A program made the translations under genes and the position numbers. From Kiloniellales bacterium (GTDB taxonomy: Bacteria; Pseudomonadota; Alphaproteobacteria; Kiloniellales; JAKSBE01), in the NCBI GenBank assembly GCA_030066685.1, contig JASJBF010000010.1, forward strand, positions 124,001 through 188,000: DNA of 64,000 nt, given 5' to 3'. Each line of letters opens with the position of its first letter. Position 1 is the stretch's first letter. This document shows, one piece after another, positions 10,567 to 45,540 of this stretch. Below the pieces are notes generated by a model. The model made no database searches. It saw only the letters and a program-made list of their open reading frames with translations, and was not told where the DNA came from.

Positions 10567-10571
10567 GCCGT

Positions 10572-10910: not shown

Positions 10911-10935
10911 GAGGTCTCCCTCCTCGCGCGGGCGG

Positions 10936-28798: not shown

Positions 28799-28873
<75 letters not shown>

Positions 28874-29103: not shown

Positions 29104-29252
29104 CCAGGGAGCGTTGATACTGACCCATTTGATGGCGCGCGGCGGCCCGCTGCGTTGCGCTCCGCTTACGGTGCCCAGCACCGCTGCGCGAAGCGCGCCT
29201 GACGGGCGGGCAAGCAAACCCGGTCAAATGGGTCAGTATCAACGCTCCTTGG
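29104..29252. mobile_element. 149-base element with 29-base terminal inverted repeats (MITE-like)
   Basis: Left arm 29104-29132 and right arm 29224-29252 are inverted copies with a single mismatch; the core is GGAGCGTTGATACTGACCCA. The 91-base interior is GC-rich and codes for nothing recognisable. No target-site duplication is evident. It could be a non-autonomous insertion element or two abutting ends of a larger insertion sequence whose middle was lost. Confidence 0.6.
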
Positions 29253-29472: not shown

Positions 29473-29997
29473 ATGCCCCGCACGCCTCTTCAACCCCGTC
29501 CTGCCGTCTTCTTCGACCGTGACGGCGTGCTCAATCACGATGCCGGCTATACTCATCGAATCGAGGACTTCCGCTGGATGGGAACCGCCCGGCAAGCGAT
29601 CAAGTTCTGCAACGACTCAGGGTACTTTGTTTTCGTGGTGACCAACCAGGCCGGCATAGCGCACGGCTATTACGACGAAAGGGCGGTGCGTCGGCTACAC
29701 CGCTACATGAACGACGAGATTCTCGAGCAAGGCGCGCGGATCGACGATTTTCGCTATTGTCCTCATCACCCCGAGGGTTCGGTCCCCGCCTTCGCCAAGT
29801 CCTGCTTCTGCCGCAAGCCGCGCCCCGGCATGATCCTCAGCTTGCTTCGTGATTGGCCGGTCATCACGGCTGGGAGTGTTATGTTCGGCGACAAGCAAAG
29901 CGACATCGAGGCCGCCGAGGCCGCCGGGCTGCCTGGCGTTCTCTTCACCGGTGGCTGCCTGCAATCCGTCGTCGAAACCGCGCTGTCCAAAATCTAG
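29473..29997 (+). CDS. gmhB: D-glycero-D-manno-heptose 1,7-bisphosphate 7-phosphatase
   Basis: HAD-IIIA phosphatase of 174 residues that removes the 7-phosphate from heptose 1,7-bisphosphate. The catalytic aspartates are in FFDRDGVLNHDAGYTH, followed by VFVVTNQAGIAHGYY. The zinc-binding loop is YCPHHPEG with CFCRKP, and the late motif is MFGDKQSDIEAAEAAG. With gmhA, hddA and hddC in the same island it completes the route to GDP-D-glycero-alpha-D-manno-heptose. Base composition is clearly less GC-rich than the flanking backbone. Confidence 0.92.
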   Translation: MPRTPLQPRPAVFFDRDGVLNHDAGYTHRIEDFRWMGTARQAIKFCNDSGYFVFVVTNQAGIAHGYYDERAVRRLHRYMNDEILEQGARIDDFRYCPHHPEGSVPAFAKSCFCRKPRPGMILSLLRDWPVITAGSVMFGDKQSDIEAAEAAGLPGVLFTGGCLQSVVETALSKI

Positions 29998-30064: not shown

Positions 30065-30625
30065 ATGCTGTCTCGATACCTGAAAGAAACCGCCGACAAC
30101 ATCCGGGCCGCCGCGAACGCCGATCTAGACGGCTGCATGGAGCGGGCGATCGGACTTGTCGCCGATGCGGTCAGGAACAGACGCCCGGTCCTGGTCTGCG
30201 GAAACGGCGGATCCATGGCGGACAGCTTGCACATCAGCGGCGAGCTGGTGTCGCGTTTCAAGGTCGAACGGCAAGGCCTGCCGGTTATTGCGCTGGGCAT
30301 CAACCTGGCGGCCTCGACGGCCTGGAGCAACGACTACTCCTATGAGACCCAGTTCGCCCGCGAGGTCGAGGCTTTCGGGACCGAGGGCTCAACCATCATC
30401 GGTCTGTCCACCAGCGGCAACTCGAGCAACGTTATTGCCGCCTTCGAAACGGCCCGGCAAATGGGCATGAAGACCATAGCTCTGACGGGCAAGGGCGGCG
30501 GTAAGCTGGCCGATCTCGCCGACGTCTTGCTGGCGGTCCCCTTAAGCGACACGCCGCGTGTCCAGGAGGCGCACGTCGCCTGCTACCACTACCTCTGCAT
30601 GGAAGTTGAGAAGGCCATTGTTTGA
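30065..30625 (+). CDS. gmhA: Sedoheptulose-7-phosphate isomerase
   Basis: SIS-domain isomerase (186 residues) converting sedoheptulose 7-phosphate to D-glycero-D-manno-heptose 7-phosphate, the first step of the heptose pathway. Diagnostic blocks are VLVCGNGGSMADSLHISGEL, GINLAASTAWSNDYSYE, GLSTSGNSSNVIAAFE and the His-containing end PRVQEAHVACYHYLCMEVE. An AAGGG precedes ATG 30065. It follows gmhB on the same strand with a 67-base gap and converges with the Fcl-like gene. Confidence 0.93.
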   Translation: MLSRYLKETADNIRAAANADLDGCMERAIGLVADAVRNRRPVLVCGNGGSMADSLHISGELVSRFKVERQGLPVIALGINLAASTAWSNDYSYETQFAREVEAFGTEGSTIIGLSTSGNSSNVIAAFETARQMGMKTIALTGKGGGKLADLADVLLAVPLSDTPRVQEAHVACYHYLCMEVEKAIV

Positions 30626-30637
30626 AACCGGGCGCTC

Positions 30638-31579
30638 CTAAGCCGCATTTTCCTGCAGCCAATCGATGGTCATGCGTAGCCCTTCGCGCAGGCTCACCCT
30701 GGGGCGCCAACCCAGCTCGAGTATTCGCGTGGAGTCGAGCTGTTTTCTCGGCATTCCATCGGGCTTTTCGGTCGCGTAGTGGAATCCGCCGGAATAGCCG
30801 ACCTCGGAGGCGACCAATTGCGCCAGCTCCGAGATGCTGACGCTTTCCCCCGCGCCGATATTGATGACGTCCTCGGCGCTGTAATGTTCCATAAGGAAGA
30901 TCAGCGCGCGCGCCGCGTCGTCGACGTAAAGGAACTCGCGTCGCGGCCTCCCGGTGCCCCAGATCTCGACTGGGCCACCGCTCTTTCGCGCCTCGGTGAT
31001 TTTGCGAATCATGGCCGGCACGACATGGCTGGCGGCCGGATCGCAATTGTCACCTGGACCGAACAGATTGGTTGGGACGACCACGATGAAATCGTCACCG
31101 TACTGTCGTCGGTAGGCCTGGCACAGCTTGATGCCGGCGATCTTCGCCACCGCGTACCACTGGTTGGTCGGTTCGAGCGGACCGGTCAGCAAGTCGGCTT
31201 CCGCCATTGGCTGCTTGGCCAGCCTAGGGTAGATACACGACGAACCGAGGAACATCAGCTTGCCGGTGCTTGCGAGGTGCGCGCCATGCACGATGTTGTG
31301 CACGATCGCCAGGTTGTCATGGATGAAGTCGGCCGGCCGGGTGTCATTGGCCAGGATACCGCCGACCGTGGCCGCGCTGACGAAAATGGCATCGGGCCGA
31401 TTGGCATCGATCCATGCCTCGGTATCGCTTTGGCGGCGCAGGTCGAGTTCGTCGCGGCCGACGGTCAGAATTCGGCAGTTCCTCGTCTCCAGCTCACGTA
31501 CAAGGGCTGACCCGACCATTCCGCGATGGCCGGCCACCCAGACGCGCTTGCCCGACAGGTCGAACAGCTTCTCGGCCAT
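30638..31579 (-). CDS. GDP-L-fucose synthase-like epimerase/reductase (Fcl/ColC/MlghC family)
   Basis: Extended SDR of 313 residues. The NADP-binding VWVAGHRGMVGSALVREL, LMFLGSSCIYPRLAKQP and the catalytic YAVAKIAGIKLCQAYRRQYG (Tyr-x3-Lys) are all as in GDP-fucose synthase, with PTNLFGPGDN after. Family members act on GDP-4-keto-hexoses (Fcl, ColC) or GDP-4-keto-heptoses (Campylobacter MlghC). No GDP-mannose 4,6-dehydratase is present, and heptose genes flank it. A GDP-4-keto-heptose substrate is therefore more likely here (inference). It is last in a five-gene operon. Confidence 0.85.
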   Translation of the reverse strand: MAEKLFDLSGKRVWVAGHRGMVGSALVRELETRNCRILTVGRDELDLRRQSDTEAWIDANRPDAIFVSAATVGGILANDTRPADFIHDNLAIVHNIVHGAHLASTGKLMFLGSSCIYPRLAKQPMAEADLLTGPLEPTNQWYAVAKIAGIKLCQAYRRQYGDDFIVVVPTNLFGPGDNCDPAASHVVPAMIRKITEARKSGGPVEIWGTGRPRREFLYVDDAARALIFLMEHYSAEDVINIGAGESVSISELAQLVASEVGYSGGFHYATEKPDGMPRKQLDSTRILELGWRPRVSLREGLRMTIDWLQENAA

Positions 31580-31582: not shown

Positions 31583-32527
31583 TCACACGTTGCCGTAGCG
31601 GCTGTCGCGGATCATGACATAGCCCTTGATGAGTTCTTCGATGCCGGCGTCGAGTGAGTGTTCCGGCTTGAAGCCTGTGCTCTCGATCTTCTCGTTGGAC
31701 ACGATATAGTCGCGTTTGTCCGGGTCCTCGCCGATCGGGGCCTCCAAGACCTGGAAGGCCGGGATGCGCTTCCGAATCCGCTCGCACAATTCCAGCTTCG
31801 ACAGGTTTGCGTCGGACAGCCCGACGTTGTAAGGCTCGTCCTTCATGCTTTCGAAATTGTCGATACCGTGCAGAAAAACGCGGGCGACGTCGCGGACGTG
31901 AACATAGTTGCGCTTGAAATGGGCCTCGAACAGCACGACGGCACGGTCATAGACGGCGCGGTAGACGAAGTCGTTCACCAGGAGATCGATGCGCATTCGC
32001 GGGGCCATGCCGAATACGGTGGCCAGACGGAAGCTGATGGCGTTGCCGCGGTCCAGCACCGCCGATTCCGCCTCGACCTTGGTCTTGCCGTAAGTCGAAA
32101 TCGGCAGCAGCGGCGTGTCCTCGGTACAGTACTTACCGGCCTCGCCGATGCCGTAACCTGAATTTGTGGTTGGTATCAGGATCCGCTGCTCCTTCGACAG
32201 CATCCTTGTCAGCATGACGACGGCGTCTCGGTTGGTCGTCACCGTGGCGATCTCATCGTCGCGGCAAAGCGGAGCCCCCACCAAGGCGGCCAGGGGGATC
32301 ACGATATCGGCTTTGCTTATCAGCGGCCTAAGCACAGCCTCCGATCGCGCATCGCCCTTGACGACCGTGAAGTTCGAATCCGCGCAGCTGCTGGCCAGAG
32401 AGTTCTGCTTGAACATGAAATTGTCGAGCACGGTGACCCGGTGGCCCGCCATCAGCATCTCGGGGACCATGATCGAGCCCAGATAGCCCGCGCCTCCAGT
32501 AATCAGTACATTCAGTTTCGCGACCAT
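31583..32527 (-). CDS. NAD-dependent epimerase/dehydratase (extended SDR), candidate GDP-heptose 4-oxidoreductase
   Basis: A 314-residue extended SDR. The NAD-binding VLITGGAGYLGSIMVPEML leads it, then IPTTNSGYGIGEAGKYC and the catalytic STYGKTKVEAE (Tyr-x3-Lys). The C-terminal half carries NYVHVRDVARVFLHGI and PYNVGLSDANLSK as in sugar-nucleotide epimerases. By analogy with Campylobacter Cj1427, a GDP-heptose C4 dehydrogenase, it could supply the 4-keto sugar for its neighbours; this is inference from context. The Fcl-like gene starts 3 bases after its stop. Confidence 0.8.
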   Translation of the reverse strand: MVAKLNVLITGGAGYLGSIMVPEMLMAGHRVTVLDNFMFKQNSLASSCADSNFTVVKGDARSEAVLRPLISKADIVIPLAALVGAPLCRDDEIATVTTNRDAVVMLTRMLSKEQRILIPTTNSGYGIGEAGKYCTEDTPLLPISTYGKTKVEAESAVLDRGNAISFRLATVFGMAPRMRIDLLVNDFVYRAVYDRAVVLFEAHFKRNYVHVRDVARVFLHGIDNFESMKDEPYNVGLSDANLSKLELCERIRKRIPAFQVLEAPIGEDPDKRDYIVSNEKIESTGFKPEHSLDAGIEELIKGYVMIRDSRYGNV

Positions 32528-32582: not shown

Positions 32583-33749
32583 TCAGCAGGCCGCATCCAG
32601 CACTTCGCGCAGCCGGTGGATCTGCGGCGAGAGGTCGTAGGGGTGGTTGCCGACGAAGAAACCATAGTCATGCGCGATGTGGGCGTTCTCGATTTCGCCG
32701 ACCGTGTCATAGTCGTAGTACTTCAAGACATCGTGACGCAAAAAGCAGCCGCCGGTGATGATGCGGAAGCCGATGTCGGATTCTGTAAGGGCGGCAAAGA
32801 CCTTACGCCGGTCGATATCCTTGCCTGGATTCAAGACGATCGTGAAGGCAAAAGCTGAACTCTTGCCATTTTCCTTCTGGATGATGAAGCGGTCGTCGCC
32901 GCCGAACAGCTCCTGGAACAGGGCCCAGTTCGCCCGGCGCTTGGCGGTCATGCCGGGCAGCTTCTTGAGCTGCTCAAGGCCGACGGCGCCCGACATCTCA
33001 AGCGGCCGCAGATTGTAACCCGGCAGGATGAAGCGATAAGCCTCGAACCGGTCGTCGCCGCCGCGTTCGTACAGCGGGGTGTCGTCGGGCAGGTCGCGGG
33101 TCCACCCATGGGCACGAATCGACCGGCATAGGTGCGCCAGCTCCATGTCGTCGGTCAGAACCATGCCACCTTCCATGGTGGAGATGTGGTGCGAGAAAAA
33201 GAAGCTGAAGGTGTTTATCTCGCCGAAAGTCCCGGTTTTTCTGCCGCCGAGTTCGGCATCCATCGACTCGCAGTTGTCCTCGAACAGGTAGAGGCCATGC
33301 TCGTCACAGAAGGCGCGCATCACATCCAGGGCGGCCGGATTGCCCAGGATGCTGACCGCCATCACGGCCTTGGTCTTCGGCGTCAGCGCCGCCTCGAGCT
33401 TGGAGACGTCGACATTCAAGGACTCGAGCTCGACATCGAGGAAACGAAGCTTCAGGCCGAACTGCTGCAAGGGATGATATGTCGTACTCCACGAGATCGC
33501 CGGCACAATCACCTCATCGCCGCGCTTCAGCGGGTTGTCCTTCTTGTAGGTCAGGGCGGCCACGCCGGCGAGGTTGGCCGAGGAGCCGGAGTTGACCATC
33601 ACGCCGTGGGCCTTGCCGAAGTAGGCGGCGAACGTCTGCTCGAACTGCGCCACACACTTGCCCATGGTGAAGAAGCCGGAGTCGATGACACGATGTATGG
33701 CATCGATTTCCTCCTGGCCCCAAGAGGAGGAGGCGAGGTCATAGAACAT
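32583..33749 (-). CDS. ColD-like PLP-dependent sugar 3-dehydratase (catalytic Lys replaced by His)
   Basis: A 388-residue DegT/DnrJ-fold protein. Where aminotransferases carry the PLP lysine this one reads FSFFFSHHISTMEGG. The second His of SHH is the hallmark of GDP-4-keto-6-deoxymannose 3-dehydratase ColD and of CDP-sugar E1, which use PMP and remove the 3-OH. Other blocks also match ColD-type proteins: DLASSSWGQEEIDAI, GFFTMGKCVAQFE, VPAISWSTTYHPLQQFGL, LPGYNLRPLEMSGAVGLEQL and FFVGNHPYDL. The product would be a 3-deoxy-4-keto sugar. It is the third gene of the operon, 77 bases after E1beta. Confidence 0.88.
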   Translation of the reverse strand: MFYDLASSSWGQEEIDAIHRVIDSGFFTMGKCVAQFEQTFAAYFGKAHGVMVNSGSSANLAGVAALTYKKDNPLKRGDEVIVPAISWSTTYHPLQQFGLKLRFLDVELESLNVDVSKLEAALTPKTKAVMAVSILGNPAALDVMRAFCDEHGLYLFEDNCESMDAELGGRKTGTFGEINTFSFFFSHHISTMEGGMVLTDDMELAHLCRSIRAHGWTRDLPDDTPLYERGGDDRFEAYRFILPGYNLRPLEMSGAVGLEQLKKLPGMTAKRRANWALFQELFGGDDRFIIQKENGKSSAFAFTIVLNPGKDIDRRKVFAALTESDIGFRIITGGCFLRHDVLKYYDYDTVGEIENAHIAHDYGFFVGNHPYDLSPQIHRLREVLDAAC

Positions 33750-33826: not shown

Positions 33827-34897
33827 CTAGAACGGTCCCTTGAACTCGGCTTGGTAGGCGAGTTGGCACGCCTCTTCCGGCGGCGCCCAATGACCCTCCT
33901 CGGGACGGACCATTTTGTGGGCCGCAGTAGCGATCGTCGCCGGGTTCGCATAGAAGAGGCGCTCCAGCGCCGGTGTGGTCGGACAAGTGGTCGGCGCAAA
34001 GCCCATCCGGTGCACCTGGAGGGGCTGCTCGGGCCCCAGCATTTCGCAGACGCGGGCAACGATTTCGGCGCTGGCGCCGCAGCTTGTCCAGGCGTTGTCG
34101 ACCACGAGCAAGCGCCCGGTCTTGCGCACAGAGTCCGCAATGGTCTCGACATCCAGTGGGATCAGCGAGATCGGATCGATGACCTCGGCTTTGATACCGA
34201 CGTCGGCCAGCAGGTCGCGGGCGCGCAGGGCTTCCATGACCATGTTCGATACGCCGACGATACTAATATCGTCGCCTCTGGTGATCACGCGGGCCTCGCC
34301 GAACTCGACGGTATAGGGGGTTTCCGGCACATAGGCCTCGGTGAAGTACAGCAGCCTGTGCTCCACGAACATGACTGGGTTGTTGTCGCGGATCGCCGCG
34401 ATGAGGCAGCCCTTCGCATCATGCGCATTTGAGGGCGCCACGACCTTCAAGCCGGGCACGTGCATGAACATCGCGTGCAGGCCCTGCGAATGCTGGGCGC
34501 CTTGTCCCCACGACTTGCCGATCATGCTCCGCACCACCAGTGGCACATTGACCTGACCGCCGTACATGTAGTGGCTCTTGGCCGCGATGTTCACAAGCTG
34601 GTTCATGCAGAGCATCATGAAATCCATGCGAATATGCACGTGAATCGGCCGCATGCCCGCCATGGCGGCGCCAATCGCCACACCGGTCATGGCGTCTTCC
34701 GACAACGGCGTCGTGAAAACGCGCTCGGACCCAAACCTTTCGAGCAAACCGCTGGTGGAGCCCTGTATCGCCTTATGGTCGTCGACATCCAGACCCATCA
34801 CAAAGACAGAGGGATCGGCTGCCATCTCCTGACAGGCGGCTTCGGCGAGGGCGTCGACATAGCGAAGAAGGCGCTGGGAGCTATTCCGCGAAGACAT
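33827..34897 (-). CDS. TPP-dependent alpha-keto acid dehydrogenase E1 beta-like subunit
   Basis: A 356-residue transketolase-type pyrimidine-binding plus C-terminal domain protein, as in the PDH/acetoin dehydrogenase E1 beta family. Conserved parts are the TPP-activating glutamate region TTPLSEDAMTGVAIGAAMAG, GQGAQHSQGLHAMFMHVPGL with VVAPSNAHDAKGCL, and EVIDPISLIPLDVETI. It overlaps the E1alpha gene by 17 bases. No E2 acyltransferase or E3 genes are nearby, so the pair probably acts on free acyl-TPP chemistry, e.g. adding a C2 unit to a keto sugar as proposed for AviB1/B2 (inference). Confidence 0.86.
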   Translation of the reverse strand: MSSRNSSQRLLRYVDALAEAACQEMAADPSVFVMGLDVDDHKAIQGSTSGLLERFGSERVFTTPLSEDAMTGVAIGAAMAGMRPIHVHIRMDFMMLCMNQLVNIAAKSHYMYGGQVNVPLVVRSMIGKSWGQGAQHSQGLHAMFMHVPGLKVVAPSNAHDAKGCLIAAIRDNNPVMFVEHRLLYFTEAYVPETPYTVEFGEARVITRGDDISIVGVSNMVMEALRARDLLADVGIKAEVIDPISLIPLDVETIADSVRKTGRLLVVDNAWTSCGASAEIVARVCEMLGPEQPLQVHRMGFAPTTCPTTPALERLFYANPATIATAAHKMVRPEEGHWAPPEEACQLAYQAEFKGPF

Positions 34898-35846
34898 GGG
34901 TCATAAGCTCCTGCGGTTCTGGGAAGGGACTATTTTCGGCGAAGTCGAAGGCTTCGCGAATCTGTTCTTCGATGGCAACGTCAATGGCCTCGCGCTGGGA
35001 TTGTGGAACCATCCCGGCAAGCCAGGTCAGTTGGTCGTTGGCGATCCAGGAGTCGGCCTCGTCTCGGGAGCGATAGCCGGCGGCGAAGTCCTCGTTGGGG
35101 CCGACGTGTTCCTTCCAGCGGTAGGCATGGACTTCCAGGAAAGCAGGGCCGTTGCCCGAACGGACGTGCTCGACTGCCTTCGCCGCCGCTTCCCGGACGG
35201 AAAAAATTTCACCATCGGCCACGCGCTGGGCCTTCACGCCGAAGCTTTGCATCCGCTCGACCAAGGCATTCCTTGCCCAGCGCTTCGAAAGCGGCTCGTG
35301 GATCGCATAGAAGTTGTTCTCACAGACAAAAAGGACCGGCAATCCGTGCAACGAGGCAAAATTGACCGTTTCGTAAAAGCAACCTTCCTCCGTCGCACCG
35401 TCGCCGAAGAAACAGACCGCGATCCGGTCCCCGCCTAGGCGCTTCAGGGCGAGCGCGACGCCCGCTGTGTGCGGTATGTGCGTGGCGACGACCGCTGAGG
35501 CCCCGAGGACGTTGTTGTCGGCAGCAATCAAGTGCATCGACCCGCCCTTGCCGCCGGCGCAGCCGCCGGACTTGCCGTACAGCTCCGCAATCATGCGCTT
35601 GAGCGAGCCGCCCCGCGCCAGGTAGACGGCATGGCCGCGATAGGAGCCGCCGCAGACGTCGTCCGCCCGTAGGACATCGCTCACTGCCACGGTCACGAAC
35701 TCCTGCCCGATCGAAAGGTGAACAGGGGACTTGATGTCGTCGCTTGGATAGACCCGAGCGATCTCCTCTTCAACCCGCCGAATGTAGCGGAGCATTTGAT
35801 ACAGGCGGATTGCCAAGCCTTCGCAAGACCCCTGCTTGGTTTCCAC
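34881..35846 (-). CDS. TPP-dependent alpha-keto acid dehydrogenase E1 alpha-like subunit
   Basis: A 321-residue E1 alpha subunit starting at GTG 35846 behind GGAGG at ideal spacing; a frame to 35900 exists but lacks such a site. The TPP/Mg motif is FFGDGATEEGCFYETVNFAS ending at CENNFYAIHEP. The substrate-channel region GSMHLIAADNNVLGASAVV and SYRGHAVYLARGGSLKRMI are typical. It is the first gene of the operon E1alpha-E1beta-ColD-like-SDR-Fcl-like. Cofactor binding can be read from the motif; the acceptor is unknown. Confidence 0.87.
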   Translation of the reverse strand: METKQGSCEGLAIRLYQMLRYIRRVEEEIARVYPSDDIKSPVHLSIGQEFVTVAVSDVLRADDVCGGSYRGHAVYLARGGSLKRMIAELYGKSGGCAGGKGGSMHLIAADNNVLGASAVVATHIPHTAGVALALKRLGGDRIAVCFFGDGATEEGCFYETVNFASLHGLPVLFVCENNFYAIHEPLSKRWARNALVERMQSFGVKAQRVADGEIFSVREAAAKAVEHVRSGNGPAFLEVHAYRWKEHVGPNEDFAAGYRSRDEADSWIANDQLTWLAGMVPQSQREAIDVAIEEQIREAFDFAENSPFPEPQELMTHVFAE

Positions 35847-36200
35847 GTTTATTACCTCCGTTTTCGCAATAACAGTGATGACGATTTTCGATATCGGCAC
35901 TGCCCTTGTGTCATCTGCTCGTAGTCAAGTACCTTGGAAGACGGAAGGACGGGCGATCGTGAGGACATACGAGGAAACCTCACGACGCGCAATATCAGAT
36001 CAAAGCCCGGCGCCGCCGATCTCACATTCTCACTCGGAATGCCGCACGCCACACCGAAAACACAGTTCGCCGCCTAGATGAGCCTGGATTGACGAAAATT
36101 CATCGAGTTCTCACGGGGGGTATGGAATTTTGGTCAAGGCTGGCTAGACTGCTGCCTCGCCAGCCCACGCTACGAGAGAACAATTGGAGTGATTTCCAGC
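35847..36200. other. Divergent intergenic region inside the sugar cluster
   Basis: A 354-base gap between the E1alpha operon and the radical SAM operon. It must hold both promoters, but I find no -35/-10 pair with good spacing on either strand. TTGACG at 36089 and TTGACT on the opposite strand near 35930 lack good partners. There is no hairpin-plus-T-tract and no gene. Confidence 0.4.
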
Positions 36201-37712
36201 ATGCCAGAACCGCTTGATCTCATTTTGATCAATCCCGGTGGTCGAGAGAAGATCTATCAAGACCTTGGCGCAGATTTGACGGCGGTCGAACCCCCCTTGT
36301 GGTGCCGGTTGATCGGCGGGTACGTGCGGGATCGCGACTACAGCATCGAAATCCTCGATTCCGAGGCGCTGAACCTGGGGGCGGAGAAGATTGCCGAAAT
36401 CGTCGTGCAGAAACAACCGCGTCTTGTTGGGCTGGTCGTGTTCGGTCACCAGCCCTCGGCCTCGACTCAGCAGATGGTGGGCGCGCGTGACGCATGCCAG
36501 GCGATAAAACAGTGGGACGCCGAGCTGCCGGTCGTCATCGTCGGTGGCCATGTCTCTGCTCTGCCTGAGAAGACGCTGCGTGAAGAGCCGGTGGATTTCG
36601 CCTGCAAAGGCGAAGGTCCGGTCACCATCGTGCAGCTCTTGGAGATGCTGGGAAAGCCCGCGGAGCAGCGGGAGTTGACGAAGGTCGCCGGGTTGGTATG
36701 GCACGACACCGAAAATGACAAGGTGGTCATCAACCCGCCTGCGCCCCTAATCACGGACCTGGACACCGATCTTCACGGCCAGGCTTGGGATTTGCTGCCG
36801 ATGGAGCTCTATCGCGCGCACAACTGGCAATGCTTCGACGACTTGTCGCGCCGCAAGCCGTACGCCTCGATATATACTTCGCTTGGCTGCCCCTACAAAT
36901 GCACCTTCTGTTGCATCAACGCTCCGTTCGATATCAACCGGTATCGCATGCGCAGCCCACAAGCGGTGATCGCCGAGATCGATCATCTTCACGCCACCTA
37001 TGGGGTGAAAACCTTCAAGATCATAGATGAGATGTTCGTGCTCAATCATCGGCACGTGAAGGCGATCTGCGAAGGTCTTGCGGCGAAGCCCTATGCGAGG
37101 GAGCTGAACATCTGGGCCTATGCGCGCGTGGACACCGTCAAGGAGAGCATGCTCGACCTACTGCGGTCGGCCGGTATCCGCTGGCTGGCGCTGGGGATAG
37201 AATCTGGGTCTGCGCATGTGCGGGACGGCGCCGAAAAGTCGTTCGCGCAGGACGAGATTCGCGACATTGTCCGCAAGATTCAAATGCACGACATTGCCGT
37301 TATCGGGAACTACATCTTCGGTCTTCCCGACGACGATCTGAAGAGCATGCGCGAGACCCTGGACTTGGCCAAAGAGCTAAACTGCGAGTTCGCCAATTTT
37401 TATTCCGCGATGGCCTATCCGGGGTCGCCACTCTACGCGATGGCGGTTCAGCACGGATGGGAGCTGCCGGATTCATGGAGCGGATTCTCGCAGCATTCCT
37501 ACGACTGTAAGCCTTTGCCGACAGAAAAGATCTCGTCCGTCGAGGTGCTCGAGTTTCGCGACAAGGCGTTCCACGAGTATTTCAGAAGCACGCGATACTT
37601 GGAAATGATCACCCAGAAGTTTGGCCACGGGGTACGGGACCATCTGGAGATCATGTCGAGGACCAAGCTGCGTCGAAAGCTGGTGGAGGAGATGGCCCAA
37701 GAGGCGGTCTGA
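36201..37712 (+). CDS. B12-binding domain radical SAM protein
   Basis: A 503-residue protein. Residues about 5-140 form a B12-binding-like Rossmann domain (LILINPGGREKIYQDL; VGLVVFGHQPSASTQQM; VVIVGGHVSALPEKTL). The radical SAM barrel begins at SLGCPYKCTFCCINAPFD, whose CxxxCxxC binds the 4Fe-4S cluster, with LALGIESGSAHVRDGAEKSF and IGNYIFGLPDDDLKSM downstream. Relatives methylate or rearrange unactivated carbons. In this cluster a sugar or lipid carrier is the probable substrate (inference). ATG 36201 is preceded by GGAG; GTG 36189 is an alternative. It heads an operon with hddC and hddA. Confidence 0.85.
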   Translation: MPEPLDLILINPGGREKIYQDLGADLTAVEPPLWCRLIGGYVRDRDYSIEILDSEALNLGAEKIAEIVVQKQPRLVGLVVFGHQPSASTQQMVGARDACQAIKQWDAELPVVIVGGHVSALPEKTLREEPVDFACKGEGPVTIVQLLEMLGKPAEQRELTKVAGLVWHDTENDKVVINPPAPLITDLDTDLHGQAWDLLPMELYRAHNWQCFDDLSRRKPYASIYTSLGCPYKCTFCCINAPFDINRYRMRSPQAVIAEIDHLHATYGVKTFKIIDEMFVLNHRHVKAICEGLAAKPYARELNIWAYARVDTVKESMLDLLRSAGIRWLALGIESGSAHVRDGAEKSFAQDEIRDIVRKIQMHDIAVIGNYIFGLPDDDLKSMRETLDLAKELNCEFANFYSAMAYPGSPLYAMAVQHGWELPDSWSGFSQHSYDCKPLPTEKISSVEVLEFRDKAFHEYFRSTRYLEMITQKFGHGVRDHLEIMSRTKLRRKLVEEMAQEAV

Positions 37713-37730: not shown

Positions 37731-38441
37731 TTGCAGGCCCGACTCGATGAGATATCGATAGCAATTCTGGCTGGTGGACTGGGAACGCGCTTGCGTTCCC
37801 TTTTGCCGGACCGGCCGAAGGTGCTGGCGCCGATTGGAACGGGTCTGTTCATCGATGTGCTGCTGGACTGGCTCGAGGCCCAAGGAGCTAAACGCGTGGT
37901 GTTTCTCTTGGGCCACCGCGCCGAGCAGGTGACGAGCCATTTGTCGGCCGCGTCGCGGCCCGCACTGACCATTGAAACGGTTGTTGAGCCCCAGCCGCTG
38001 GGCACCGCGGGTGCTGTGACCTTCGGCCGGGCACAGCTTGGTGCGCCGGTGATCGTCATGAATGGCGACACCTTCGTGGACTGCGACCTCAAGGCGTTTG
38101 CCGCCGCGGCGCTGTCCGATCCGGCCCCCGCCTCGCTTGTTGCCGTCGACCAGGAGGATACCTCGAGGTACGGGCGGATCGAGGTGCGGGACGGTCGGCT
38201 GGTCGGGTTTCAGGAAAAGCCGGATGGGCGGCCCGGTCTGGTCAACGCCGGCATCTACTTCCTGAAGCAGCCAGCGCTGAAATCCATTCACGAAATCGAA
38301 TCAGGCTCGATCGAGCGCGACTTCTTCGCACGCCTGCCCAAGCGGACCGTGATGGTGTGGCAAACGCACGGACGATTCATCGATATCGGGACCCCCGATA
38401 GCCTGCTCGCCGCGGGCGAAGTTCTCCAGTCTGCCTGTTGA
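37731..38441 (+). CDS. hddC: D-glycero-alpha-D-manno-heptose 1-phosphate guanylyltransferase-like nucleotidyltransferase
   Basis: A 236-residue sugar-phosphate nucleotidyltransferase. The phosphate loop is AILAGGLGTRLRSLLPDRPK, with the metal-binding VIVMNGDTFVDCDL, FQEKPDGRPGLVNAGIYFL and the terminal FIDIGTPDSLLAAGEVL. Short length and lack of a C-terminal beta-helix fit HddC. The TTG start (37731) has AAGGGGG upstream. Gene order rSAM-hddC-hddA, with gmhA/gmhB in the same island, supports GDP-heptose as product; a mannose-1-phosphate specificity cannot be excluded from sequence alone. Confidence 0.82.
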   Translation: MQARLDEISIAILAGGLGTRLRSLLPDRPKVLAPIGTGLFIDVLLDWLEAQGAKRVVFLLGHRAEQVTSHLSAASRPALTIETVVEPQPLGTAGAVTFGRAQLGAPVIVMNGDTFVDCDLKAFAAAALSDPAPASLVAVDQEDTSRYGRIEVRDGRLVGFQEKPDGRPGLVNAGIYFLKQPALKSIHEIESGSIERDFFARLPKRTVMVWQTHGRFIDIGTPDSLLAAGEVLQSAC

Positions 38442-38490
38442 TAACACCGGCCCGCATCCGAAGTGCAGGCCCAAGTTGGAGTTGTTGTCG

Positions 38491-39492
38491 TTGATTATTA
38501 GTCGGACACCGTTTCGCATTTCTCTCTTCGGTGGTGGAACGGACTATCCAGAGTGGTACCGGGAGCACGGCGGTGCGGTTTTCGGCACGACCATAGACAA
38601 GTATTGCTACATAAGTGCTCGTCGCCTGCCGCCGTTTTTTTCCCACAAGCATCGTTTGGTTTATTCCAAAGTCGAGACCGTCACGGATATCCAGGAGATC
38701 CAGCATCCGGCGATCCGCGGCGTGCTCGGGGACCTGGAGATCGACGACGGATTGGAGATCCATCACGACGGCGATCTACCGGCGCGCTCGGGCCTCGGGT
38801 CGAGTTCGTCCTTCACCGTCGGTCTGATCAATGCGTTGCGAGCGCTCGAAGGGCGCATGTCGTCCGCCAGGTTTCTGGCGGAACAGGCGATCCGCATCGA
38901 GCGAGATGTGCTGAGGGAAAACGTCGGGGCGCAGGATCAGATCTGGGCCGCCTTTGGTGGGATCAACAAAATCGAGTTCTTGTCCGACGGAACATTCACG
39001 GTCACACCCACGGTAATGTCGTGCGAACGACGCACCGATCTCCAATCGTGCATGATGTTGTTCTTTACCGGCTTTACCCGCCACGCATCGGAAATCGCCG
39101 CAAAGACGATCTCCAACATCCATCAGCGGCAGCATCAGCTGCGGGCCATGCTGAGTATGGTCGACGATGCGGTCGCGGTCCTGCAGAACGAGCACGGCGA
39201 CGTCCGGGATATCGGTGCCATGCTGCACGACAGCTGGCGTTTGAAGCAGGAACTCGCCGACAATATCTGCCCTGCTTACATCGAAAGCATCTACGAAGCT
39301 GGCAAGGCAGCCGGCGCACTTGGAGGCAAGATTTTGGGCGCCGGAGGCGGTGGCTTTATGCTCTTCTTCGTCCCGCCGGAGAAGCAAAAAGGCGTGCGGG
39401 AAGCCTTGAAGAAACTGATTAGCGTCAAAATCACGATTGGCAGTTCAGGCAGCACGATCGCTGTTTACGAGCCTGACCTCGGACAGGGCTGA
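38491..39492 (+). CDS. hddA: D-glycero-alpha-D-manno-heptose 7-phosphate kinase-like GHMP kinase
   Basis: GHMP kinase of 333 residues that would phosphorylate heptose 7-phosphate at C1. I start at TTG 38491: a GGAG lies 9 bases upstream and the protein then begins IISRTPFRISLFGGGTDYPE, the usual N-terminus of HddA. The ATP loop is DLPARSGLGSSSSFTVGLIN, and the C-terminal GHMP motif is GGKILGAGGGGFMLFFVP. It is last in the rSAM-hddC-hddA operon. Together with gmhA, gmhB and hddC it completes the GDP-manno-heptose set. Confidence 0.88.
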   Translation: MIISRTPFRISLFGGGTDYPEWYREHGGAVFGTTIDKYCYISARRLPPFFSHKHRLVYSKVETVTDIQEIQHPAIRGVLGDLEIDDGLEIHHDGDLPARSGLGSSSSFTVGLINALRALEGRMSSARFLAEQAIRIERDVLRENVGAQDQIWAAFGGINKIEFLSDGTFTVTPTVMSCERRTDLQSCMMLFFTGFTRHASEIAAKTISNIHQRQHQLRAMLSMVDDAVAVLQNEHGDVRDIGAMLHDSWRLKQELADNICPAYIESIYEAGKAAGALGGKILGAGGGGFMLFFVPPEKQKGVREALKKLISVKITIGSSGSTIAVYEPDLGQG

Positions 39493-39539: not shown

Positions 39540-40583
39540 TCAGCGCTTTCTTGACTGGGCACTGAGGCTACGCACCGTTCCAGACTCACTCTGTACATTT
39601 TTTTTCTTCTTGGATAAGACACTTTTTACAATGTAATTCGGTCTCTTTTTGACCTCGTGAAATATCACATTAATGTACAAGCCGATGAATCCCAGCACGA
39701 TCAACTGGACGCCGCCGAGAAGCAGCATCGTCGCCATGATGGCCGGCCAACCTGGTTCGTGCCAGCCGAAAAGCTTTTGGACCAGAACCGCCATCAGGTA
39801 GATCGCGGCTAGTCCGGCGATGAAAAACCCCGCAAAAAGCGCGAGCTTCAGCGGCGCATCGGAGAACGAGATCAAGGCACGATCCAGGTAGCCGTAGATA
39901 ACCCGCTTGGACAGAACCGAAAACTTCGTGCTTGCTCGGCCGTCGAACCTTGGGTCGCGGTCGTAGTATACCTGCACCTGCTTGAATCCGACCCAACTGA
40001 CCAGCCCTCGAAGGTAAGGCAACTTCTCTTCGCATCGGAGGACCTCGTCGACAACCCGTCGCGACAGGAGTTTGAAATCACCTGAGTCGACCGGAAGATC
40101 GGTATTCGAAATGCGGTTGATAAATCGATAGCCGACCTTGGTCAGCAGCATCTTCAAGGGATGCTCGCCGGAACGCGTGCGCCGGGTCGTGTAAACCACC
40201 TCCGCGTCCGGGTCCGTCCGCCATCGCTCAAGGAGAGTTGGAATAAGCTCCGGCGGATCCTGAAGATCCGAATCCATATAGATGACGACGTCACCCGTCG
40301 ATTGGGCGAAACCGGCGTAGACACACTCGGAGACCCCAAAATTGCGAGACATACTTATCAAGACGATATCGCCATGCCGCTCTATCTCGCGGTTGAGGAG
40401 TTCCTCCGAATTGTCAGTCGAGGCGTCGTTGACAAAAACCAGCTCGTACCCGGAAATCTGGTCGCGTACACCCGCGAAGGTCTGCCGCAGCCGAGAGAGA
40501 AGCTCCGGGATGACCGCCTCTTCATTGTAAAACGACAGGACAACGGACACGAAAGGCCGGCTGCGAGCTTCGCCGACTGACAT
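39540..40583 (-). CDS. Membrane-anchored GT2 glycosyltransferase (DPM1/GtrB-like)
   Basis: A 347-residue protein. The GT-A domain (about 10-235) has VSVVLSFYNEEAVIPELL, LVFVNDASTDNSEELL, the metal-binding IYMDSDLQDPPELIPTL and NRISNTDLPVDSGDFKLLSR. Two transmembrane helices (about 245-270 and 280-310) follow and the tail is Lys-rich. This is the layout of polyprenyl-phosphate glycosyltransferases such as GtrB, which load a sugar on undecaprenyl phosphate. An AGGAGAAAGG precedes the ATG. It is downstream of the VTT gene and may build the island's glycan. Confidence 0.87.
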   Translation of the reverse strand: MSVGEARSRPFVSVVLSFYNEEAVIPELLSRLRQTFAGVRDQISGYELVFVNDASTDNSEELLNREIERHGDIVLISMSRNFGVSECVYAGFAQSTGDVVIYMDSDLQDPPELIPTLLERWRTDPDAEVVYTTRRTRSGEHPLKMLLTKVGYRFINRISNTDLPVDSGDFKLLSRRVVDEVLRCEEKLPYLRGLVSWVGFKQVQVYYDRDPRFDGRASTKFSVLSKRVIYGYLDRALISFSDAPLKLALFAGFFIAGLAAIYLMAVLVQKLFGWHEPGWPAIMATMLLLGGVQLIVLGFIGLYINVIFHEVKKRPNYIVKSVLSKKKKNVQSESGTVRSLSAQSRKR

Positions 40584-40595: not shown

Positions 40596-41222
40596 CTAGT
40601 TTTGCTTTTTGATCTCGTCCACGCGATCTGCCTGGATATGTCGCCGTAGGAAAAGCCAGACGCCCAAGGCCAGGGTCGAGACGAGCATTAAGTAGATGAT
40701 TGGCTCTCGAACGTCGTGCAGGAAAATCACATCCTTGGCCGCAGCGCCTGAGGCGACCAGGGCGGTTTGCAGTGGCAGCGTGGAAAGAAAGGTCGTGAAC
40801 GTGAAAGTGCTGCACCGCATGCCCGAAAAACCGAAAGCGTATCCTGCGCTCGACGCGGGAACGAAGGGATTGCCCTGCACAATCACGACGGCCGCCCAAC
40901 CGGTGCCGACAATGCGTCCCAGAGCCGCGCTCGATTTCCGAACGAACGTGCTGTTGCTCAATATACGTCCGGCTCTACCGGCGCCGACCAACCGCCCGAT
41001 CAGGAATGTCAACGCGGCGGCCGTCAAGGCGGTTAGAGACGATATGGCTAGCCCAGGCCAGAGACCCCAGGCGGCTCCGGCGACGAAGGTAAATGGCGAA
41101 CAAGGCAGAAATAGCAACGCCGCCGATACATGCAGAACCAAATAAACAGCTACGGCCAAATAAATCTCTTCACTTGCGAGGGCCAATACGATCTGGGCGG
41201 GTTCCAAGATATAGTCGAACAT
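40596..41222 (-). CDS. VTT-domain (TVP38/TMEM64-like) membrane protein
   Basis: A 208-residue protein with about six hydrophobic segments. The VTT/SNARE-associated signature is seen as LPCSPFTFVAGAAWGLWPG, ALTFLIGRLVG and VVIVQGNPFVPASSAGYAFG. Related proteins act as lipid scramblases or in undecaprenyl-phosphate recycling, which suits a glycan locus, but the role here is not proven. The GT2 gene starts 12 bases after its stop, so they are cotranscribed. Confidence 0.82.
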   Translation of the reverse strand: MFDYILEPAQIVLALASEEIYLAVAVYLVLHVSAALLFLPCSPFTFVAGAAWGLWPGLAISSLTALTAAALTFLIGRLVGAGRAGRILSNSTFVRKSSAALGRIVGTGWAAVVIVQGNPFVPASSAGYAFGFSGMRCSTFTFTTFLSTLPLQTALVASGAAAKDVIFLHDVREPIIYLMLVSTLALGVWLFLRRHIQADRVDEIKKQN

Positions 41223-41424: not shown

Positions 41425-43212
41425 TCATCTGAGGGAATACAACTTGTACGAATCGCCTTCCGCGATCGGCTGCTTGAGAGCCAGCACCCAATCCGGTGGA
41501 ACCATGACAGCGTCAACTCCGAACTCGTTTGCGACGTGGACCCACTCAGCGGCAGTTCGCGCTTCCCAAACTTGCTTGAACGCGCTTTTCACGATCGCCC
41601 CCCTGTAACGTGTCGCCACGGGCGGATTCTCAAAACTGACGCCGTAAGCGATCGAAATTATGCGGCGCATTTCGCTCGCAGCCCAGGGTATGTAGGGAAG
41701 CGAGTTGGTGGCTGTCGGATCTATGAGCGCAGGCAAGGCACACAGGCGTTGTGAAATGGCAAATTGCCTGTAAGAAGCGACGAGAACCAGGCCCTTCAAT
41801 TCAACGTCCCTGCATTCGTTCGTATCACCATATGATGCCGCTCTTTCAAATCCGATATATGAAAGCGCCGTAAGCGAGACGGTACCGGCGAAAAAAGCCA
41901 CTGCGATGACGACGTTTGTTGCGCGAACAAACAGCCTGCTTCGCGGTCTTGGCCGCTGAGTAAATCGGGCTGCAGAAACCAAGAGAATCACGAACACAAA
42001 AATCCAAAACAGCATGATTTCATGGTTCCTAACTTCAATGTACAGGCCTAGCACGAAAGAGTACATAAGTAATGTTATCAGAGCGAAGCTAGCGGAACGG
42101 TTTTGGCACATTCTGCGGAAGCTAAATCGAAACAGAGTTCCGATAAAGAAAACCTGCACGAAAAACACATTGAACATCATAAATCGACCAGGGATGGCTC
42201 GAACCATAATCTCGCTTGCAGCGCCCAAATCGCTATGGCTGATGATGTACGGCAAGGGGCTAAGAACGACGGCGAAAGACAAGGCAAGAGTAATGCTGGA
42301 GCCATGGTAAAGGCCTTGAGTTTCTTTGAGTACATGCAGCCATAGCATCATTGCTCCGCAAATAAATGCGCTGATGATAGGCAAAATTTTGAAGTCGATG
42401 TTTCTGTGATGTCCCCAGAATTGCGACCAGATCAGGAATGCATGATCGTCGGCCGAGAATTCAGACTTTGTGGTGAAGACAAAGTGATCCACCAAATAGC
42501 TGCCAAAAAGAAACAAAGTTCCTAATGATAGACCTCTTAGAATTGCCGAACATTTTTCTCTTCTTTCCTTGAGGAGCAAAAAGGCCGCTATAAAAGCAAC
42601 GATTATAACTGTCCATAAGCCAAGAATTAAATGTATACAGGTCGTCAGCACTGCGAGGAAGCCCGTGGATCTGAAATAGCCCACAGCCGCAACCCCAAGC
42701 GTTAAAATTGCGAATGATGAACCGAGCCAACTTAAATGTTCGCTGCCGATATACTGAGTTGGATAGTCAGATTCGAAAATACTAAAGAAGCCATCGCGTG
42801 CAATCAGCGGCGCCAGCAAAACGGCAAGTAGCCCGTTCTTGGAAATCGAATAGAGCAGTAAAGCCAGTCCCGCTACCATTGCTGCGCCCGCCGCCGCGGA
42901 AATCGCAGCGGACATCTGACCGTGACCTAATCCAAGTGAATATCCTAGATACCCAATTTGGTGGATCAGGCTCCAAGAGTTGGTGGCCCACTCGACTGCG
43001 TATGAATTTGATGGAAAAGAATCGCGTGACAAAAATATATAGGGCACGTCGAGTGGCCGGAGCGCAACGGCGCGCAAGAATCCCCAAACCGCTCCACAGT
43101 AGAGCGATATCAGAAAGACAGTTTCAACGTCTATTTTTTTAGAAATCAAATACAGGAAAACATTTGGGGTGCGTAAAAATCTTGAGAATATTTCATACGA
43201 GGGAAGATTCAT
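41425..43212 (-). CDS. Large polytopic membrane protein of unknown function
   Basis: About 595 residues starting at ATG 43212 with MNLPSYEIFSRFLRTPN; a frame back to 43299 lacks a good start signal. It has ten to twelve hydrophobic segments up to about residue 460. A soluble, probably periplasmic C-terminal domain of about 130 residues follows, containing CRDVELKGLVLVASYRQF, TNSLPYIPWAASEMRR and HVANEFGVDAVMVPPDW. The build recalls DUF6311/Wzy-like or GT-C transferases, but I recognise no family motif. This is the most AT-rich gene of the window, pointing to separate, recent acquisition. Confidence 0.72.
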   Translation of the reverse strand: MNLPSYEIFSRFLRTPNVFLYLISKKIDVETVFLISLYCGAVWGFLRAVALRPLDVPYIFLSRDSFPSNSYAVEWATNSWSLIHQIGYLGYSLGLGHGQMSAAISAAAGAAMVAGLALLLYSISKNGLLAVLLAPLIARDGFFSIFESDYPTQYIGSEHLSWLGSSFAILTLGVAAVGYFRSTGFLAVLTTCIHLILGLWTVIIVAFIAAFLLLKERREKCSAILRGLSLGTLFLFGSYLVDHFVFTTKSEFSADDHAFLIWSQFWGHHRNIDFKILPIISAFICGAMMLWLHVLKETQGLYHGSSITLALSFAVVLSPLPYIISHSDLGAASEIMVRAIPGRFMMFNVFFVQVFFIGTLFRFSFRRMCQNRSASFALITLLMYSFVLGLYIEVRNHEIMLFWIFVFVILLVSAARFTQRPRPRSRLFVRATNVVIAVAFFAGTVSLTALSYIGFERAASYGDTNECRDVELKGLVLVASYRQFAISQRLCALPALIDPTATNSLPYIPWAASEMRRIISIAYGVSFENPPVATRYRGAIVKSAFKQVWEARTAAEWVHVANEFGVDAVMVPPDWVLALKQPIAEGDSYKLYSLR

Positions 43213-43259
43213 TGCATTCTCGCGGAAGTTTGCACTTGGAGATTTCGCGGTCGTCAGAT

Positions 43260-43320
43260 TGTACAGACAGGGTGTACAGATGCGGTAACCGCCTGACAAT
43301 CGCCGCTTTTAGCGGGGCGT
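43260..43320. other. Palindrome-rich right-border segment of the island
   Basis: Holds a direct repeat TGTACAGA (43260-43267 and 43273-43280), a perfect GCGGT-A-ACCGC palindrome (43282-43292) and a hairpin CCGCT-TTT-AGCGG (43303-43315). It lies exactly where base composition jumps back to backbone level. No copy of the tRNA 3' end is found here. Confidence 0.45.
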
Positions 43321-43779: not shown

Positions 43780-43970
43780 CCGTCACCGGCCCGTCGTTGT
43801 CCTTCACGCCTGCTTGAGTTTGCGCCGCCGGCCTTTGCATGCGGAAGACTCCACCCTATGTCTCTCGTTAAGATCGGGAGTTCCTCGGCCGAGGCCCGCG
43901 AACGTAGGGTTCGGCCGTCTTGTCGCGCCGGACTGCGGCGGTTTTGAGTTCGATCGGGGAGAAGGCGACC

Positions 43971-44621
43971 GTGGAGTTGACTGAGAAGGCTCTCGGCCGG
44001 ATCGCCGCGGCGGCCGCAGTTTTGGTGTTTGTTTCCGCCTGCGGCGTTCCGACCACCTACAAGTGGAACCGCGAGCAGTGGAGCCGCGGCAAGCTCGGCT
44101 ACGCCGCCGCCCAGGGCGCGATGTTGACCGATATCCGCGGCAACCCCTTCACGGGACCCAAGGCGGAGCTCGACAAGGCGGTGACCGAGACCATGTACGG
44201 CGCCCACTTCGGCCCCCTGGTCCGCTTCGTCACCCAAGCCGAAGCGCCGCAGGGCCTGAAGTCGCCCTATCGGGTGGTCATGCTGTTCAATCCCGAGGAG
44301 ACCACCAGGTCCAAGGAGCTCTGCACCGGCGATCCGGCGCCCGGCGCGCCGACTCCGGGCCAGGTCAAGATCGCGGCGGCGGTCTGTTCTCAGGATCTCC
44401 TCGAGACGGCGATCTGGGGCAGGGTCGCCGAGGTCTCCGGACCCGACGACGCGGGGTTCAAGGCCTTGATCCGGCAGATGACCATGCAGCTCTTCCCGCA
44501 TCAGAATCCCGACGACCGCTCGGCGCAGGGGCCGGCCGGCTACGGCTCTCCGCCGGTCGAAGTGAGCGTCTTCGATGACCCGGCTTCGGGATGGCGCGCC
44601 GCGGCGGCTTCGGCGCAATAG
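43971..44621 (+). CDS. Lipoprotein of a three-copy tandem family, copy 1
   Basis: A 216-residue protein starting at GTG 43971 with GGGGAG upstream. The signal peptide ends in the lipobox VSAC, so Cys is lipidated. The mature part shares with its two neighbours TYKWN, YAAAQGAMLTDIRGNPF, TMYGAHFGPLVRFVTQ, SPYRVVMLFNPEETT and FKALIRQMTMQLFP. It has a unique 25-residue C-terminal extension. Two further cysteines (ELC, VCSQD) are conserved across the three copies. I do not recognise the family. Probably outer-membrane or periplasmic-face. Confidence 0.75.
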   Translation: MELTEKALGRIAAAAAVLVFVSACGVPTTYKWNREQWSRGKLGYAAAQGAMLTDIRGNPFTGPKAELDKAVTETMYGAHFGPLVRFVTQAEAPQGLKSPYRVVMLFNPEETTRSKELCTGDPAPGAPTPGQVKIAAAVCSQDLLETAIWGRVAEVSGPDDAGFKALIRQMTMQLFPHQNPDDRSAQGPAGYGSPPVEVSVFDDPASGWRAAAASAQ

Positions 44622-44695
44622 GACTGGAATGCAGAGAAGTGGTTTCTGGTTGGCGGTTCAAGGCATGATTGAAACCGACCGAGGAGAAAAAGACC

Positions 44696-45280: not shown

Positions 45281-45328
45281 AGCACGATTCAGACATGAGG
45301 TCGACTCGACCTCATGTCATCGTGCTCT
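45279..45328. repeat. Palindromic GAGC-type repeat, copy 1
   Basis: Arms AGAGCACGAT (45279-45288) and ATCGTGCTCT (45319-45328). An inner perfect pair, ACATGAGGTCGA / TCGACCTCATGT, flanks a single base. The left arm starts within the stop codon of lipoprotein copy 2, so it may also act in mRNA stabilisation or termination. Same family as 45343-45390 and 52857-52901. Confidence 0.7.
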
Positions 45329-45342
45329 AAACTGTTGAACTG

Positions 45343-45390
45343 GAGCGGGATTCAGATTTGAAGTCCAGTCGACTCCAAATCATCCCGCTC
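45343..45390. repeat. Palindromic GAGC-type repeat, copy 2
   Basis: Arms GAGCGGGAT (45343-45351) and ATCCCGCTC (45382-45390) with inner pair ATTTGaAGTC / GACTcCAAAT. Layout, unpaired tcag and central GTC/GAC match copy 1, only 14 bases away. The two form a tandem pair between lipoprotein copies 2 and 3. Confidence 0.7.
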
Positions 45391-45540
45391 TGGGACCGGC
45401 GCCGTCCGTTGGGCATCGGCGGCAGGGAGTTTGATCTGGTTCATGTCGCTCGGGCGGCATCTCGGGCTTCAATCGACCGAGGCTTGCCCTCGAGGGGACC
45501 GGCTTCCGATTTCGCGGCACTGACCAAGGAGGATCGAGCC

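Follow-up and report, generated by a model that had tools for sequence, protein, structure and literature searches.

A B12-binding-type radical SAM protein accompanies two-carbon branching enzymes in GDP-heptose cassettes and may close the ring of caryose-type surface sugars

Caryose, a carbocyclic sugar of the lipopolysaccharide of Trinickia (Pseudomonas) caryophylli, and bradyrhizose both need two carbon-carbon bonds between oxygen-bearing carbons; thiamine chemistry can provide one of these, and the other seemingly calls for radical chemistry. For bradyrhizose, a ten-carbon bicyclic sugar, a 2016 paper stated that the genes were unknown and pointed to an 11-gene cluster; the words radical, B12, transketolase and thiamine do not occur in its main text (PMC4743980). 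For the GDP-heptose pathways of Campylobacter jejuni, the relevant published passages describe C4 oxidation, pyridoxal phosphate (PLP)-dependent C3-dehydration and C5 epimerization, and mention neither branching by a thiamine diphosphate (ThDP) enzyme nor a radical S-adenosylmethionine (radical SAM) enzyme (PMC10680097, PMC10440746). According to the passages on Cj1427, this C4-dehydrogenase hands its hydride to 2-oxoglutarate, thereby forming L-2-hydroxyglutarate, and yields GDP-D-glycero-4-keto-3-deoxy-heptose in vitro when combined with the C3-dehydratase (PMC10680097). The addition of two carbons from pyruvate to sugar-like ketones is ascribed, in the sections of a 2025 review devoted to it, to E1-alpha/E1-beta enzymes of the alpha-KADH2 type, e.g., KbDH, known from antibiotics (PMC12247030). 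Among radical SAM enzymes, HpnJ is described, in the part of the literature source concerned, as carrying out the last step to bacteriohopanetetrol cyclitol ether, a hopanoid made from a glucosamine adduct (PMC12583986). Here we analyze a 64,000-nucleotide stretch of a Kiloniellales genome (GCA_030066685.1, contig JASJBF010000010.1, positions 124,001 to 188,000), referred to as the window, and within it the gene for a B12-binding-type radical SAM protein of 503 amino acids (36201-37712, forward strand).

We propose, as a reading whose chances we judge to fall just short of even, that this protein serves a mobile GDP-heptose pathway as a dedicated, late-acting enzyme and would close a carbon ring on a branched sugar. 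The support for the pathway context, i.e., the gene set, its conservation and its association with branching genes, is strong; the catalytic steps assigned below, ring closure above all, are inferred. The reading frame covers 36189-37712 if a GTG codon is the start and 36201-37712 if translation begins at ATG; the latter agrees with the N-termini of homologues, and a GGAG is present 11 bases ahead of it. The preliminary description of this DNA had seen a B12-binding-like domain, a CxxxCxxC cluster motif and a position within a heptose cassette directly upstream of hddC and hddA. All of this is borne out. The Pfam domains B12-binding (PF02310; residues 22-146; 61.7 bits, cut-off 32.1) and Radical_SAM (PF04055; residues 225-390; 51.8 bits, cut-off 29.5) are present, the motif C230-x3-C234-x2-C237 is invariant in 42 of 42 aligned sequences, the window's own among them, CxxxCxxC occurs in all 96 genomic members of the family, and the annotated hddC and then hddA follow directly downstream on the same strand. 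An AlphaFold model built on the 42-sequence alignment has a mean predicted local distance difference test score of 92.8, and its best matches among solved structures are radical SAM proteins, mainly of the cobalamin-binding class, over nearly the full length. By domains, motif and fold, the protein is a cobalamin-binding radical SAM (class B) protein, with binding of cobalamin and of the cluster predicted. The sole other match to it in the same genome at E<=1e-5 has an E-value of 2.5e-9 and 29% identity. Homologues that are about 38-71% identical retain similar neighbor genes in many phyla, which argues that the genetic setting of the radical SAM gene is not due to chance.

Relatives of the protein were taken from a scan of genome contigs (best 80 of 210, T. 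caryophylli not being among these 80), from plasmids (4 records at E 1e-40), from a sampling of 385 genomes within the class (17 positive, one of them the genome of the window) and from IMG/VR (37 loci). A total of 100 genomic loci entered the analysis, four of which were removed because they shared an identical stretch of 200 residues; 58 of the 96 remaining non-redundant loci have at least 5 kb on either side of the radical SAM gene, and 38 have less. Within a radius of 10 kb, and with bit-score cuts that we set ourselves, a ThDP enzyme of the branching type was found in 51 of the 58 well-flanked loci (49 within 5 kb), at a median distance of 1.3 kb. Genes of the HddA (48), short-chain dehydrogenase/reductase (SDR; 47), ColD (44) and HddC (35) types accompany it, and those for GmhA (9), GmhB (9) and an L-2-hydroxyglutarate oxidase (8) were counted as well. 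The ThDP enzymes are of three kinds, a two-subunit E1 enzyme (39 loci), a split transketolase (12) and an acetolactate-synthase-like decarboxylase (3, including a weak hit in L147 that lies on the opposite strand beside an E1 pair); three loci carry two types. The split transketolase, decarboxylase and L-2-hydroxyglutarate oxidase types were verified by profile on one representative each. In the sections of the 2025 review that compare nine ThDP superfamilies, only these three use ketone acceptors, and they are linked to branched keto-sugars (PMC12247030); all three occur near the radical SAM gene. On a quick tree of the radical SAM proteins (74 rows with one type), the kind of ThDP enzyme must have changed at least 13 times. 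Since it varies to this extent, what stays constant is probably the branched product rather than a particular gene lineage. Judged by NCBI record names, which cover 74 of the 96 tree rows and include many metagenome-assembled genomes, the family spans 16 phylum-level groups. Plasmid pDMC1 of Solidesulfovibrio magneticus has a large part of the set in one row, with genes for a VTT-domain protein, two family 2 glycosyltransferases, the radical SAM protein, a NUDIX protein, a kinase, E1-alpha, a transketolase-C protein (E1-beta), Fcl, a DegT protein, an SDR and a nucleotidyltransferase, and, farther along, an L-2-hydroxyglutarate oxidase and a SIS-domain protein. NUDIX hydrolase genes were observed within 10 kb in 12 of the 58 loci (e.g., L056, L057, L059), a label that comes from record annotations and whose representative has no NCBIfam match.

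The same association is seen at the level of genomes. Among the 385 sampled genomes of the class, for which the initial scan scored at most four candidates per genome and in which contigs of metagenome-assembled genomes may be misbinned, 17 carry the radical SAM gene, 28 the SDR and 23 E1-beta. Co-occurrence with the radical SAM gene reaches 16 of 17 genomes for the SDR and 15 of 17 for E1-beta (Fisher p 6e-20 and 2e-19, kinship ignored). The SDR exception, G346, is a contig fragment whose locus (L055) has an SDR next to the radical SAM gene; the exceptions for E1-beta are again G346 and G363, which carries a split transketolase (L154). The reverse does not hold. E1-alpha, E1-beta, ColD, SDR and HddA genes lie in one locus in G058 (95% complete), G130 (98%) and G166 (99%) without a radical SAM gene of the family; the same linked cassette without it is present in G228, a genome that is 70% complete, and E1-beta occurs without it in G273, G293 and G376 (the latter two from the initial scan). 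When the 12 SDR-positive genomes lacking the radical SAM gene were rechecked, five had a match at E 1e-20. The match in G180, a piece of 111 residues (141.8 bits), was taken as a cut family member, and the other four, weak over longer stretches, as paralogues, the one in G058 being the HpnJ gene. Inspection by eye of four cassettes without the radical SAM gene recognized no ketoreductase that might substitute for it. The radical SAM gene hence follows the branching cassette, while the cassette can do without the gene, and this looks like an optional late step; because three genomes that are at least 95% complete hold the cassette alone, we regard this step as an addition that comes after branching. 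As the genetic dependence is on enzymes that introduce a two-carbon branch, a branched nucleotide sugar is the likely substrate. A stand-alone modification of a heptose or a lipid was considered and discarded as being at odds with this dependence.

In terms of ancestry, the nearest named families are HpnJ and BchE, which are ring-forming yet distant. Every one of the 42 aligned sequences is matched by both profiles at E 1e-20, with the best E-values, and in profile-profile comparisons the family scores 309.8 with HpnJ, 285.1 with BchE and 199.5 with the hopanoid methylase HpnR (6, 2 and 3 sequences per profile, respectively). HpnJ, the best profile match, shares with our protein the B12-binding radical SAM architecture and a sugar-derived substrate, and the ring that it makes is a cyclopentane; it differs in its score far beneath the family cut-off and its separate clade, and no hopanoid gene is present among the annotated open reading frames (ORFs) of the cassette. 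BchE, the second-best match, has the same architecture and is, by name, a ring-forming anaerobic oxidative cyclase, but the cut-off is missed here as well, its substrate is a porphyrin, and it belongs to a separate clade. In a quick tree with 61 rows, the family (37 rows) forms a single clade with a support of 100, separate from HpnJ (whose own clade also has a support of 100), BchE, HpnR and 13 neighboring paralogues. A phylogenetic placement had been suggested in the preliminary description; it sets the family outside the HpnJ, BchE and HpnR clades, and the gene neighborhoods tie the family to GDP-heptose cassettes. The scores with HpnR (TIGR04367; 57.2 bits, cut-off 650) and the PhpK-like P-methylase (TIGR04479; 86.8 bits, cut-off 600) are again far too low, and membership in HpnJ, BchE, HpnR, PhpK or AprD4 was rejected on these grounds, the clade being distinct from the first three.

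These data lend themselves to a model for the pathway. GmhA, HddA, GmhB and HddC would provide GDP-D-glycero-D-manno-heptose, the SDR would oxidize C4 while O6 is kept, the ColD-type enzyme would remove O3, and the Fcl-type protein would invert C5. The 3-deoxy-4-keto intermediate proposed here is the compound that Cj1427 and its C3-dehydratase yield in vitro in the passages cited above, and the three reactions are those of the C. jejuni pathways; the C5 epimerase of the latter, in contrast to that of the window, relies on a dyad of His and Tyr, and those passages do not call it Fcl-type (PMC10680097, PMC10440746). The two-subunit ThDP enzyme would then place a pyruvate-derived acetyl group on C4, contributing carbons 8 and 9, and the branched intermediate would be GDP-3-deoxy-4-C-acetyl-heptose, with a sugar of the formula C9H16O7. 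By our own arithmetic, C7H14O7 becomes C7H12O7 upon oxidation of C4, C7H12O6 upon 3-deoxygenation and C9H16O7 upon addition of an acetaldehyde unit, which is also the formula of caryose, so that the branched sugar is an isomer of caryose as named in the consulted part of PMC9026286. An aldol reaction cannot join two oxygen-bearing carbons, and a second ThDP step would be blocked once C8 is a ketone; C7-C8 would consequently be left for radical chemistry. Because HpnJ and BchE form rings, we infer that the radical SAM protein may close this bond. It would abstract a hydrogen from C7, and the C7 radical would add to the C8 ketone carbon, creating a cyclopentane without a change in mass. The product would be a GDP-bound 4,8-cyclo-3,9-dideoxy-nonose of the caryose type, destined for a surface glycan. 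It corresponds to caryose in formula, deoxy positions and ring, and the structure name given for caryose in the passages of PMC9026286 implies the configuration of the heptose at C2 and C6 and an inverted C5, a comparison by name of the structure and not by genes.

If correct, the cassette would couple a ThDP enzyme and a radical enzyme on a heptose scaffold, and four or five enzymes together with mass spectrometry would be enough to test a long-open biosynthesis. A bolder claim, which we regard as possible but on balance doubtful, is that the family constitutes a novel radical SAM clade of carbocyclases, which convert a GDP-heptose bearing a two-carbon branch into a caryose-type sugar with a fused cyclopentane, and that its cassette is the first gene set for a carbocyclic surface sugar. 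No report of the gene set or of a ring-closing gene was found in the open-licence PMC literature, a search that left subscription papers mostly outside its reach. Carbocyclic surface sugars would then be far commoner, in many phyla and in phages, than the few known structures imply. An octose version of the same logic would explain bradyrhizose, a thought we offer as a lead only.

Several observations weigh against ring closure. The scores of the protein with the NCBIfam profiles of HpnJ (TIGR03471; 165.1 bits, cut-off 577.6) and BchE (TIGR02026; 163.6 bits, cut-off 481.35) are far under the cut-offs, the third profile (131 bits), matched by 41 of the 42 aligned members, is that of ApyD, which we take to be a methylase, and the deep branch order of the 61-row tree is undecided, as rows outside the family may have long branches. 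Dehydratases, methylases and enzymes that catalyze rearrangements lie similarly near the model, so that the predicted fold does not discriminate between these reactions. Seven of the 58 loci have no ThDP gene by the cuts used; one of them (L108) has a short E1-like pair under the cut (107 and 58 bits), and in two others, L151 (genome G276) and L106 (the locus sequence of G098), the cassette is on a different contig. An Fcl gene is located within 10 kb in only 29 of the 58 loci, and in many phage modules neither ColD nor HddA is seen. Moreover, Fcl-type proteins normally reduce C4 as well, a reaction that would compete with branching.

The preliminary description had thought of a further carbon modification in the pathway, namely C-methylation of the sugar, the lipid carrier or a later glycan. 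The general idea is probably right, while methylation finds no specific support. Most characterized B12 radical SAM enzymes methylate, the methylases MgmA (Z 27.8), CysS (27.0) and TsrM (26.1) are, together with OxsB (26.4), among the solved structures near the model, and the profiles of ApyD and of a P-methyltransferase (112.8 bits) match the protein. Yet HpnJ and BchE rather than methylases are its closest named families, with ApyD next, the HpnR profile scores 199.5 against 309.8 for HpnJ, and a methylase has no need for a two-carbon branch, whereas the radical SAM gene accompanies three types of branching enzyme. Ring closure would fit this dependence better, and we consider it unlikely that the protein is a cobalamin-dependent C-methylase of the branched GDP-heptose, acting, e.g., at the acetyl group or at a different unactivated carbon. 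Rather improbable, in our view, is a radical dehydratase or epimerase that would work on the heptose side chain (C6/C7) in the manner of AprD4, even though AprD4 in complex with paromamine (PDB 6fd2) is the top solved match (Z 30.4, root-mean-square deviation 2.9, 413 residues; phmmer E 7.8e-17) and has a sugar substrate. The identity to AprD4 in this structural alignment is 21%, and its family profile (NF033070), whose cut-off is 500, is matched with a mere 78.8 bits; the ColD-type enzyme already accounts for 3-deoxygenation, and such an activity would not explain why the gene depends on branching enzymes. We give little credence to a function outside the pathway, on a lipid carrier, a cofactor or a finished glycan, with shared regulation as the mere reason for its place in the cassette. 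In five draft genomes (G046, G098, G101, G276, G353), the radical SAM gene is on a contig other than that of the SDR and ColD genes, but it is clearly distant only in G098, where it lies 120 kb inside one contig and the SDR, ColD and E1 cassette is on another. The same genomes hold the remaining cassette elsewhere, and the association spans phyla and phage contigs.

With regard to the other genes of the window, most assignments score under the NCBI equivalog cut-offs and are to be read at the family level. The gene for the HddC-like heptose-1-phosphate nucleotidyltransferase (37731-38441, forward; PF00483; NF049965 104.7 bits, cut-off 300) is followed by that for the HddA-like heptose kinase of the GHMP type (38476-39492, forward; PF00288/PF08544; NF049969 138.4 bits, cut-off 600). 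Upstream on the forward strand are genes for a GmhB-like heptose bisphosphate phosphatase (29473-29997; NF006506 150.4 bits, cut-off 178; TIGR00213 136.6 bits, cut-off 149.6) and a GmhA-like sedoheptulose-7-phosphate isomerase (30065-30625; TIGR00441 185.8 bits, cut-off 209.45). The reverse strand encodes a GDP-fucose-synthase (Fcl)-like SDR (30638-31579; NF047922 452.9 bits, cut-off 500; 375 bits with PDB 8du0), a putative C5 epimerase and possibly a reductase too, and a GalE-like SDR (31583-32527) close to the protein of PDB 6vo6/6vo8 (383 bits, E 7.4e-114). We take the latter structures to be those of Cj1427, the GDP-heptose 4-dehydrogenase of C. jejuni, and the window protein would have the same function. 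A 6-deoxy-heptose route via GDP-mannose 4,6-dehydratase was discarded: no such gene exceeds the cut-off anywhere in the genome (best score 46.1 bits versus 415), and for this reason the O6-retaining route is likelier. The ColD-type PLP-dependent C3-dehydratase of the DegT family (32583-33749, reverse; 384-390 bits with PDB 2gms/3gr9, i.e., ColD) aligns to 2gms with SHHI in both proteins, a His replacing the PLP lysine of aminotransferases. At this position, assigned from the 2gms alignment and general knowledge, 55 of 57 ColD-type neighbors have His and two have Lys. The ThDP enzyme consists of a beta subunit (E1-beta type, 356 residues; 33827-34897, reverse; PF02779/PF02780; PRK09212 292.8 bits, cut-off 321) and an alpha subunit (E1-alpha type, 339 residues; 34881-35900, reverse; PF00676; TIGR03182 284.8 bits, cut-off 393.85), separate subunits in a sugar locus as in alpha-KADH2, with no E2 or E3 among the annotated ORFs of the cassette. 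In the window, this type of enzyme is found in a heptose cassette with a radical SAM partner, in contrast to the antibiotics of the review passages. Beyond hddA, the reverse strand carries genes for a family 2 glycosyltransferase (39540-40583; PF00535, 102.2 bits), which has homologues near the radical SAM gene in some other loci and might possibly transfer the sugar to a polyprenyl carrier, and for a VTT-domain membrane protein (40596-41222; PF09335, 58.5 bits), a possible flippase; a VTT gene is also present two genes upstream of the Solidesulfovibrio radical SAM copy. An ORF of 624 residues (41425-43299, reverse) without a Pfam match perhaps encodes a membrane glycosyltransferase; Pfam is blank for 41428-43212, a segment with a low G+C content of 0.485.

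The association also extends to phage contigs. The 37 IMG/VR loci represent 31 non-redundant ones, several of which are cut by contig ends; a ThDP gene is present in 26 of them, an SDR in 17, ColD in 16, HddA in 6 and an L-2-hydroxyglutarate oxidase in 6. In the phages collection of known records, no match to the radical SAM protein was found at E 1e-30. One IMG/VR locus, L021, comprises 17.5 kb of a contig of 80 kb on which a phage-type exonuclease is encoded as well; it carries at 5964-11250, in this order, genes for an L-2-hydroxyglutarate oxidase, an SDR, the radical SAM protein, an E1-alpha-like protein (203 residues), a further ORF and an E1-beta-like protein (179 residues). The two miniature ThDP genes are far below the window subunits (339 and 356 residues) in length, and both match phrog_34187, a group of unknown function. 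An oxidase beside the SDR makes sense, since a Cj1427-like SDR would reduce 2-oxoglutarate to L-2-hydroxyglutarate.

In the window, the region from 28 to 44 kb has a G+C content of 0.545-0.635 in 4 kb blocks, compared with 0.69-0.76 to its left and 0.65-0.71 to its right; the cassette genes within it lie on both strands, and a tRNA-Thr gene (28799-28873), the only RNA element of the window to reach its gathering score, flanks it. A simple consensus scan of the gap between the divergent genes (35850-36260) detected no promoter of the sigma-70 type. In a congener (G001), the left flank and the tRNA are kept (80-91% identity in aligned pieces), and the 11 kb after the tRNA, up to the contig end, have nothing in common with the window (blastn, E 1e-5); the site consequently looks variable. 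Between the tRNA and gmhB, a 29-base inverted repeat with 97% complementarity and a 91-base spacer (29104-29252) is perhaps the remnant of a small mobile element. At the other end of the region, 43949-45991 contains three tandem gene copies with about 70% DNA identity; these are small ORFs that resemble lipoproteins and have a Cys close to the N-terminus.

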